A stretch of 44,878 nt of DNA from Muribaculaceae bacterium. GTDB taxonomy: Bacteria > Bacteroidota > Bacteroidia > Bacteroidales > Muribaculaceae. Where the stretch lies: assembly GCA_017451225.1 (NCBI GenBank), contig JAFSPZ010000023.1:1-44878 (forward strand). The letters are read 5' to 3'. The notes beneath the pieces were generated by a model. The model saw only the letters and a program-made list of their open reading frames with translations, made no database searches and had not been told where the DNA came from. This document shows, piece after piece, positions 33,611 to 35,670 of this stretch; positions within the stretch are counted from its first letter, which is position 1, and each line of letters opens with the position of its first letter. The position numbers and the translations under genes were made by a program.

Positions 33611-35635
33611 ATGAGCGAAGTAAATATTTTCCTGCCTGCAGGCACGTTGCTCCATGGAGGCCAGTACCGCATAGAGTCGCATGTGGCGTCGGGAGGTTTT
33701 GGCAACACCTATCTCGCCACCGATGTGAACCTCAAGGCGAAGGTCGCAATCAAGGAGTTTTTTATTAAGACGATAAACCATCGCGAGGATGACAGCTGCA
33801 CCGTGAGCGTGAGCAACAGCGCCAATGAGGAGATGTTCAATAGTCTGCGCGATAAATTTAAGAAAGAAGCGCAACGCATCTTCAAGATACAGCACAATAA
33901 TGTTGTGAGAGTATTTGCGTTATTTGAGGAATATGGCACAGTCTACTACTCCATGGATTATATTGATGGAGAGTCATTAAACAGCCGTCTAAAGCGCGAG
34001 GGGGCGTTGCCCGAATCGCTCGTGCGCTCGGTCTTCTCCCAGATGCTTGATGCCCTCGACGTGGTGCACGGCGCGGGACTCTTGCACCTAGATATCAAGC
34101 CTCACAACATCATGCTCACTCCCGACGGCGTAGCGAAACTTATCGACTTCGGAGCCAGCAAGCATGCCAATCAGGCCGAGGCGACAACAATTACAGGCTT
34201 TGCCTTCACTCCCGAGTATGCACCGCCCGAACTTACCAATCAGGAGTATGACGAGATAGGTCCATGGACCGATATATATTCTCTGGGTATCACTCTCTAT
34301 CGACTGCTTAGTGGCGCAGCCATCCCCAGCAAGCGCGAGATACGCGTCAAGGGCGCGGAGGCTTTCACCTATAGCCGTCCCGTGAGTGATGCGATGAAGC
34401 AGCTTATAGTGAGCATGACGCAAGGCGCAAGCGAGCGTCGCCCGCAGAGCATCGCACAACTGCGAGCACTTGCCGCTGGTCTTGAGAAAGAACCTGTTCC
34501 TGAACCTGTTGCTCAGCCTGAGGTGTTGCCCGATGAGAAAACGTTCAGCGTCGTTGATTCTACTAAAAAAGACAATGCCGCTGCTTCGGAAGTTAAGTCG
34601 CAAGTGAATGCCTCCATTTCGGAAAAGGAGCCTCTAGCTGCAGAAGATAAGACGGTCAACATAGCTGATTCAGCTAAAAAAGACCGTGCTGTTGCTTCGC
34701 AAGTAGTTACAACCAAGTCCGTTGACGAGCCGTCGGTTGCTGAAGAAAAGACGGTTTCTCTTTCTAAAGAGTCTCAAGAAGTGAGTTCTCCTGTTAAAGC
34801 CGAGAAAAAGCCAAGAGCCAAGTGGATAATAGCGGCATGCATAGTGGGGCTTGTTGCTATAGTGGGAGCTATTTGGCTGGCTAATAGTTCATCGTCATTA
34901 TCATCGCCACAACTTGTAGATGTTCCTGGTAGCCAATCGTTTGAGGTTAATGGTGTGAAATTCACTATGGTACCGGTCAAGGGCGGCACATTTACTATGG
35001 GCGCTACTGCCGAGCAGGGAAATGAAGCAGAGAGTGAAGAGAACCCCTCACATCAAGTGACTGTGTCATCGTTCATGATTGGCCAGACCGAGGTGACTCA
35101 GGAGTTGTGGAAGGCTGTGATGGGGTGGAATCCAAGCAAATGGAATGGTCCCAAACTTCCTGTTGAGGAAGTTTCATGGGATCGTTGTCAGGAGTTTATC
35201 AAAGAGCTTAACGAGTTGACTGGCGAGAACTTCCGCCTGCCCACTGAGGCGGAGTGGGAGTATGCCGCCCGTGGCGGCGTCAAGAGTCTGGGTTACAAGT
35301 ACAGCGGCAGCAACAACGTTGACGATGTGGCATGGTATAGCGTTAATAGCAATGTTAGTGGTATAGTCTTCGAAACTCACGATGTCGCCACTAAGCGACC
35401 AAATGAGCTTGGAATCTATGATATGAGCGGCAATGTATGGGAGTGGTGCCAGGACTGGTATGGAGAGAATTATTATAGTTCCTCACCTTCAAGCAACCCC
35501 ACTGGTCCAGAATCGGGCTCTTACCGCGTGTGCCGCGGTGGCAGCGGGGACAACGACGCCGGGGGCTGCCGTATTGCGAGTCGCGGGAGATGCTCCAGCC
35601 GCGGCGGCAACCTGGGTTTGCGCCTTGCCCTATAG
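33611..35635 (+). CDS. Membrane Ser/Thr protein kinase fused to a SUMF1 (FGE-fold) domain with a probable hypervariable tail
   Basis: 674 aa. Residues 19-290 form a Hanks-type kinase: Gly-rich loop ASGGFGNTY, ATP-binding Lys48, catalytic loop HLDIKPHN (Asp161, with Leu in place of Arg in HRD), DFG at 179-181 and the P+1 region EYAPPE. A linker (about 300-400) has three degenerate repeats, each with a KT-x-x-hydrophobic motif. A transmembrane helix (405-424) follows, so the kinase is cytoplasmic and the rest periplasmic or surface-facing. The SUMF1 domain (about 438-674) has GGTFTMGA, TEVTQELW, RLPTEAEWEYAARGG and SGNVWEWCQDWYG. Its C-terminus, RVCRGGS to LGLRLAL, matches the site where retroelement-diversified SUMF1/C-type-lectin proteins vary. 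The first active-site Cys of true formylglycine-generating enzymes is Asn here, so sulfatase-activating function is unlikely. Confidence 0.93.
   Translation: MSEVNIFLPAGTLLHGGQYRIESHVASGGFGNTYLATDVNLKAKVAIKEFFIKTINHREDDSCTVSVSNSANEEMFNSLRDKFKKEAQRIFKIQHNNVVRVFALFEEYGTVYYSMDYIDGESLNSRLKREGALPESLVRSVFSQMLDALDVVHGAGLLHLDIKPHNIMLTPDGVAKLIDFGASKHANQAEATTITGFAFTPEYAPPELTNQEYDEIGPWTDIYSLGITLYRLLSGAAIPSKREIRVKGAEAFTYSRPVSDAMKQLIVSMTQGASERRPQSIAQLRALAAGLEKEPVPEPVAQPEVLPDEKTFSVVDSTKKDNAAASEVKSQVNASISEKEPLAAEDKTVNIADSAKKDRAVASQVVTTKSVDEPSVAEEKTVSLSKESQEVSSPVKAEKKPRAKWIIAACIVGLVAIVGAIWLANSSSSLSSPQLVDVPGSQSFEVNGVKFTMVPVKGGTFTMGATAEQGNEAESEENPSHQVTVSSFMIGQTEVTQELWKAVMGWNPSKWNGPKLPVEEVSWDRCQEFIKELNELTGENFRLPTEAEWEYAARGGVKSLGYKYSGSNNVDDVAWYSVNSNVSGIVFETHDVATKRPNELGIYDMSGNVWEWCQDWYGENYYSSSPSSNPTGPESGSYRVCRGGSGDNDAGGCRIASRGRCSSRGGNLGLRLAL
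35531..35632 (+). other. Candidate diversity-generating retroelement variable region
   Basis: The last 34 codons of the kinase-SUMF1 gene are about 72% G+C by hand count, contain only 13 adenines, and 20 codons have the form NNC. Adenine-directed mutagenesis of a template rich in AAC codons would leave this pattern. The position, between RGGS and LGxRLAL at the end of a SUMF1 domain, is that of known variable regions. No template repeat or reverse transcriptase is present in this window, so the call rests on position and composition only. Confidence 0.55.
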
Positions 35636-35670
35636 CTCACCCTTTTTAGTATAATTGTATGTTTATCAAA

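Follow-up and report, generated by a model that had tools for sequence, protein, structure and literature searches.

Locus and gene architecture

The window, a stretch of 44,878 nt from contig JAFSPZ010000023.1 of a Muribaculaceae bacterium (GCA_017451225.1; genome G000, contig C58), contains a gene in which a Hanks-type Ser/Thr kinase domain, a predicted transmembrane (TM) helix and a SUMF1/FGE domain follow one another, and whose 3' end resembles the variable regions of diversity-generating retroelements (DGRs; Table 1). The FGE domain scores 164.6 bits against PF03781, for which the cut-off is 23.3, and the kinase domain carries VAIKE, HLDIKPHN and IDFG, which we take to be Hanks kinase motifs. 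The kinase side of the TM helix is rich in Lys and Arg, so that the kinase is predicted to lie inside the cell and the FGE domain outside.

Table 1. Features of the kinase-FGE gene and its 3' flank in window coordinates
Feature	Position	Strand	Details
Kinase-TM-SUMF1/FGE gene	33611..35635	+	674 aa; ORF list, Pfam
Hanks-type Ser/Thr kinase domain	33665..34447	+	aa 19-279; Pkinase PF00069, E 6.6e-42
Predicted single TM helix	34826..34882	+	aa 406-424; Kyte-Doolittle maximum 2.76, strongest hydrophobic stretch
SUMF1/FGE domain	34964..35629	+	aa 452-673; FGE-sulfatase PF03781, E 4.3e-48
Probable DGR-derived variable region, fossil or idle	35515..35635	+	two template codons absent; template alignments
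Pyrimidine-rich stretch after stop	35636..35646	+	3 mismatches from TTTCCCCT; possible homing-site remnant

The best PDB sequence match of the FGE domain is Treponema denticola variable protein 1 (TvpA, 2y3c; phmmer E 3e-37). TvpA belongs to a DGR and, like the window gene product, has an FGE-type domain with a C-terminal variable region; unlike it, the solved chain is without a kinase. In our structure model the mean pLDDT is 71, and residues 199-234, in the tail, fall below 50.

A kinase-FGE ortholog is found in the same neighbourhood in G025, where the relative is full-length (71%), and in G086 (91% over aa 1-315). G000 itself, a draft assembly of 2.28 Mb in 70 contigs and 85.5% complete, is rich in FGE, with 19 matches to the ectodomain of the window gene, some of which are pieces of one gene. 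The genomes used most below are G017 and G083, of the same genus as G000, and G240, of the same family and another genus; completeness is 97% for G025, 94% for G086 and 95% for G097.

Composition of the tail

The tail at 35531-35632 reads CRGGSGDNDAGGCRIASRGRCSSRGGNLGLRLAL. Its composition is as the sequence-only reading had described it, 71.6% G+C and poor in adenine (12.7%), with 20 of its 34 codons of the form NNC; the preceding 640 codons of the gene have 26.6% NNC and 26.3% A (tail excess, binomial p 7e-5). Given the amino acids, 10 of the 13 template-Asn columns end in C where 6.5 are expected (p 0.046), and third-base C over the whole tail reaches p 0.02. Taken alone this third-base excess is weak, because Gly, Asp, Cys and Ser codons often end in C here, and with a conditioned p of only 0.046 we rejected NNC codons as sufficient proof of a DGR for the window gene. 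The same conditioned test, run on G000 tails only, gave p values of 0.014 for the paralog tail on C18, 0.0006 for C16a and 0.027 for C16b, 0/20000 draws for C10, and p of at least 0.10 for the other seven. The nucleotide match to DGR templates is a stronger test than third-base C.

Match of the tail to DGR templates

Homology to DGR templates reaches slightly beyond the stretch above and covers about 35515-35635, a segment two codons shorter than the templates. The templates of G083 and G017 read RVNRGGSWNNNARNCRVSNRNNNS(P/A)DNRNNNLGLRLA(L/R), and the window tail reads RVCRGGSGDNDAGGCRIASRGRCSS--RGGNLGLRLAL. Because no template was found in G000, the adenine specificity of the tail was measured against templates of other species only. 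Its mismatches are concentrated at template adenines: against the foreign G083 template, 19/30 A and 17/78 non-A positions differ. When the protein of the tail was back-translated with window codon usage to serve as the null, 29.4 non-A differences were expected and 0/5000 draws were as low as the observed count (p<0.0002). The non-A counts against the templates of G017 (16/79, 30.9 expected, p<0.0002) and G240 (23/78, 31.6 expected, p 0.005) are likewise below expectation.

Ten G000 tails were put through the back-translation test, from which C26 and C60b were omitted and in which C12, C51 and the other neighbouring C60 gene were never run separately. Like the window tail, C18, C16a and C10 deviate from the null; C16b is intermediate, and the five paralogs chosen beforehand for low NNC (C2, C60, C40, C16c and C24) fit the null.

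For calibration we used the three best of six templates for each tail. Set against another species' template, the G017 and G083 variable regions and that of the G240 cis target differ at 6-14 of 74-75 non-A positions, a remote target in G017 at 13-16, and the window tail at 12-14 of 70-72; C16b has 23-26 in 74-75, and C60, C16c and C40 have 28-32 in 73-77. On these figures the DNA of the window tail, and not its protein alone, descends from a DGR template. With the low-NNC paralogs as controls, descent of the tail from a DGR variable region is supported.

DGRs and kinase targets in relatives

The DGRs of G017 and G083 adjoin FGE genes, and each comprises a target, an accessory (HRDC-like) gene next to the reverse transcriptase (RT), the RT itself and a template; both RTs carry the motif IGNLTSQ, which we presume to be DGR-typical. 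RVT_1 is found in 43 of 101 genus genomes, a count that takes in RTs of other kinds. With the G083 RT as query, 15 of the 101 genomes have a match at E<=1e-10, and identity exceeds 38% in G083 (the query) and G017 (53%) only.

An RT match at E<=1e-30 was obtained in 20 of the 397 family genomes sampled, and a variable region/template (VR/TR) pair was detected in 16 of these 20 RT loci. Fourteen of the 16 pairs were typed (L147 and L148 were left out), eight as SUMF1-type and six as another type. In the detected stretches of the eight SUMF1-type DGRs 101/101 VR/TR mismatches lie at template A, a figure to be read with the script's rule of retaining only pairs with >70% of mismatches at A. The script found no pair in L135, L140, L143 or L149, and the template of L143 (G240) was located by eye in L260. 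The pairs of L139 and L142 recur on the opposite strand, where they are the same pairs reversed (8/11 and 9/11).

The cis target of the G240 DGR is a 651-aa kinase-TM-FGE protein (TM assigned by eye) with 21/31 template A changed and 1/74 non-A, and the RT frame is short (250 codons). A membrane kinase joined to an FGE tail, which the sequence-only reading had put forward as a kind of DGR target, thus has a counterpart in the family. G240 contains at least ten kinase-FGE fusions (L260-L268), whose tails range from near-template to fully drifted. Five of the nine that do not adjoin the RT were compared with the templates: C35 comes close (22/31 A, 6/74 non-A), C50 (10/74 non-A) and C24 (11/71) are less close, and C6 (24/74) and C39 (best 31/77) match poorly.

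In G017 contig C30 carries the RT and template, and C118 (37 kb) carries a kinase-FGE fusion with no obvious TM. The tail of this fusion differs from the G017 template at 14/31 A and at 4/74 non-A, all four in the first 15 nt, and is identical to it at every non-A site from base 16 to base 105; extending the comparison to 114 nt adds two non-A differences, both in the last codon (6/83). By the criterion described for Thiohalocapsa PB-PSB1 (PMC10907252), writing in trans is the most likely origin of the stretch in between. It is supported, then, that the family's DGRs have kinase-FGE proteins among the targets they write: the one in G240 is a kinase-TM-FGE in cis, and the one in G017 sits on a different contig and shows no obvious TM.

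Some further arrangements were seen. In L085 (1-6100; G017:C30) the DGR follows two genes, one for a PP2C-like phosphatase and one for a kinase with a repeat-like C-terminus (PP2C and repeats by eye). L144-L146 and L150-L152 represent a second DGR type, which has a different target tail and an RT with about 32-36% identity to the G083 enzyme. Genus RTs about 30% identical to the G083 RT lie beside very long ORFs (L090-L092), perhaps prophages.

Search for DGR machinery in the window genome

The 85.5%-complete G000 assembly yielded 0 matches to PF00078 (RVT_1), 0 to the G017 RT protein and 0 to the G083 RT, and the RVT_1 search does recover the RTs of G017 and G083. No accessory gene was found in G000 at E<=0.01, in a search that had no control of its own. 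Nor was a template-like copy found there: DNA queries with the window tail and the G083 template returned only paralog tails and short chance-like matches. With no DGR found in the assembly, identity of at least 50% to the template or variable protein of a same-genome DGR was not found either. Given the completeness of the assembly, this absence is no proof of loss. The sequence-only reading is thus supported in part: the DGR origin of the tail holds, on the strength of the non-A match to the G083 template, and neither an RT nor a template that could act on it in trans was found in this 85.5%-complete assembly.

G025 and G086 are also without an RT of a SUMF1-type DGR, though both share the locus. 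The RT at C19 of G025 was considered as a trans source for the G025 kinase-FGE and rejected, as no DGR motif was flagged there and G025 has no match to the G083 RT. Four pattern matches were obtained when viral contigs were searched for phage carriage of the RT, and none is related (the method sees close relatives only).

Origin of the tail

We consider it probable, at about 0.68, that the window tail is a remote target written by a DGR and now fossil or idle, on a receptor kinase. This reading builds on what is directly observed: the architecture, the template homology with adenine-directed changes, the kinase-FGE DGRs of relatives and an assembly in which no machinery was found. The gene product would be a cytosolic Hanks kinase with one TM helix and an external FGE/C-type-lectin-fold sensor, a topology predicted from the charge around the helix. 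In an ancestor, a SUMF1-type DGR at another locus would have written the final ~120 bp of the sensor, its template RNA being reverse-transcribed with errors at adenines and the cDNA taking the place of the gene's 3' end. The RT and template would later have been lost from the lineage, or would be carried by other strains or lie in the unassembled part, and the tail would have drifted, its non-A changes and two-codon deletion presumably dating from this stage. The outcome would be a receptor whose single ligand surface was drawn at random and is now fixed, one of several DGR-scarred FGE sensors in G000; the variable residues would be displayed outside the cell, and contact with a ligand may be relayed through the helix to the kinase.

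An alternative in line with the sequence-only reading is that a functional SUMF1-type DGR, absent from the assembly or present in some strains only, still rewrites the tail in trans. The incompleteness of the assembly leaves room for such an element, and G017 has a kinase-FGE written on another contig, but the locus-sharing genomes G025 and G086 have no RT of the type, and an RT >38% identical to that of G083 is present in only 2 of 101 genus genomes, G083 included. The non-A changes and two-codon deletion favour a tail that was not recently written.

The G000 tails, moreover, are unhomogenised, an argument of limited reach. In G083 the co-targets beside one template are identical at 22/22 third bases outside Asn codons (23/23 identical-residue codons with the other script), and third-base sharing is 1.00 in the tail vs 0.60 in the core; for the four DGR-like G000 tails it is 0.65 vs 0.58. 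The mean tail/core values of the RT-bearing genomes G017 (0.61/0.67) and G240 (0.71/0.71) are not raised, and genomes without a SUMF1-type RT give 0.75/0.68 (G050), 0.85/0.78 (G097), 0.54/0.54 (G025) and 0.64/0.65 (G086). G097 (L277-L280), where no RT of the type was found, has tail pairs that share 20/21 and 19/21 non-Asn third bases (core 0.77 and 0.73), a partial homogenisation that speaks for a live element; G070 (9/17) and G072 (12/19) contribute one tail pair each. Homogenisation is clear in G083 only, which weakens its lack as proof of inactivity, and because G017 and G240 are unraised and a G097 pair reaches 20/21 without an RT, unhomogenised tails in G000 are not by themselves the sign of an idle system.

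Divergence from the G086 ortholog bears on timing. The tail has dS 0.33 and dN 0.59 (34 codons), and neighbouring genes have dS 1.02-1.08. A tail dS below that of the neighbours again counts in favour of a live DGR and makes a very old date less likely; it could reflect gene conversion or more recent writing. On balance, we regard continued rewriting as unlikely, and the fossil or idle target as the better account.

A tail that came by recombination or gene conversion from another DGR-diversified FGE gene, and was not written in place, is less likely again. Genomes here hold several DGR-like FGE tails each, and the window gene is a mosaic in which a kinase-linker segment was probably exchanged between species: relative to G086, dS is 0.32 in the kinase and 1.13 in the FGE core, and from aa ~101 to 450 (33911-34960), compared with G086:C14 (L088), it is 0.15-0.27 per 50 codons, the exceptions in the kinase and linker being aa 301-350 (dS 0.69, 13 codons) and aa 51-100 (saturated). 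With neighbour dS at 1.02-1.08 the FGE core matches the baseline and the anomaly lies in the kinase segment, and we therefore rejected a swap of the ectodomain relative to G086. Against an acquired tail, no close donor is seen among the FGE cores compared (lowest dS 0.92), and G086 has a similar 3' flank, as judged by eye.

Ordinary diversifying selection on a lectin-fold surface, with GC-rich codons by chance, could draw on the weak third-base excess given the amino acids and on an ectodomain that is divergent anyway, but is very improbable in view of a non-A template match that exceeds what protein and codon usage provide and is absent in five paralogs, and of a tail dN above its dS where neighbours have dS of about 1.05, the inverse pattern.

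Footprints across FGE tails

We collected 152 FGE tails from relatives; the sample is biased and takes in RT-bearing genomes as well as some near-duplicates. At least 11 of the aligned template-Asn columns (usually 13) end in C in 62 of the 152, and fewer than 8 do so in 49. Sixteen genus genomes combine the absence of an RT >38% identical to that of G083 with one or more tails in which at least 11 of the aligned template-Asn codons end in C; RT counts may therefore underestimate the receptor repertoire made by DGRs.

Part of the DGR-type FGE genes end in CTATAG followed by TTTCCCCT. This sequence occurs within 2 mismatches after 19/62 tails with at least 11 NNC, 8/41 with 8-10 and 4/49 with fewer, and at 1.5% of random sites, and may possibly be a homing-site signal. 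Remnants of the accessory gene adjoin FGE genes in L031, L193, L199 and L168, loci that contain no RT and are possibly dead DGR cassettes; L031 is G050:C47, and G050 has no match to the G083 RT. The remnants and footprints fit gain and loss of DGRs with persistence of the sensors, and suggest that DGR-written sensors outlive the retroelement.

We also offer, tentatively and as something less than an even bet, the idea that a roaming SUMF1-type DGR in rumen and gut Bacteroidales periodically rewrites receptor kinases and secreted FGE sensors across the genome and is then lost, leaving fixed random receptors of which the window gene would be one. If so, an innate-like receptor library would have been built by a hit-and-run retroelement.

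Relation to known systems

Kinase-CLec targets of DGRs, remote ones included, are described from cyanobacteria in the account of PMC7517822, where most are predicted to be cytosolic and some have a TM. The window gene has the layout of this cyanobacterial kind, an N-terminal Ser/Thr kinase, a C-terminal CLec/FGE domain and a variable region at the 3' end; the targets described there likewise join a Hanks kinase to a C-terminal lectin-fold domain and are dispersed from their DGR. The window gene differs from them in belonging to Bacteroidales, in its kinase-TM-FGE order with a sensor predicted outside, and in a genome where no RT or template was found. As far as sequence can tell, these likenesses suggest that it joins the known kinase-lectin DGR targets.

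The trans DGRs of Thiohalocapsa PB-PSB1, as presented in PMC10907252, resemble the present case in that targets lie far from the RT and are recognised by agreement with a distant template at every non-A position; one target there is without observed variation. For that system metagenomic variation is shown. The VMAP/ternary conflict systems outlined in PMC7159879 also place an FGS domain C-terminal to other modules, with a link to DGRs, and sulfatase-modifying-factor targets of DGRs are among those described in PMC6642488. By its own statement the survey of Roux 2021 (PMC8144416) would miss remote targets, and the word 'kinase' is absent from its main text. No DGR literature on Bacteroidales kinase targets was found among open-licence papers searched by title and the start of the abstract. 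The relatives examined here now provide Bacteroidales kinase-FGE receptors as DGR targets, one transmembrane and in cis, one on a contig separate from its DGR.

One tail is of interest in its own right. In L273 (G025:C15), from a genome that is 97% complete and has no RT of the type, the 5' half is scrambled and the 3' half still reads like the template, with PDNRNNN, and the tail looks like a partial retrohoming tract.
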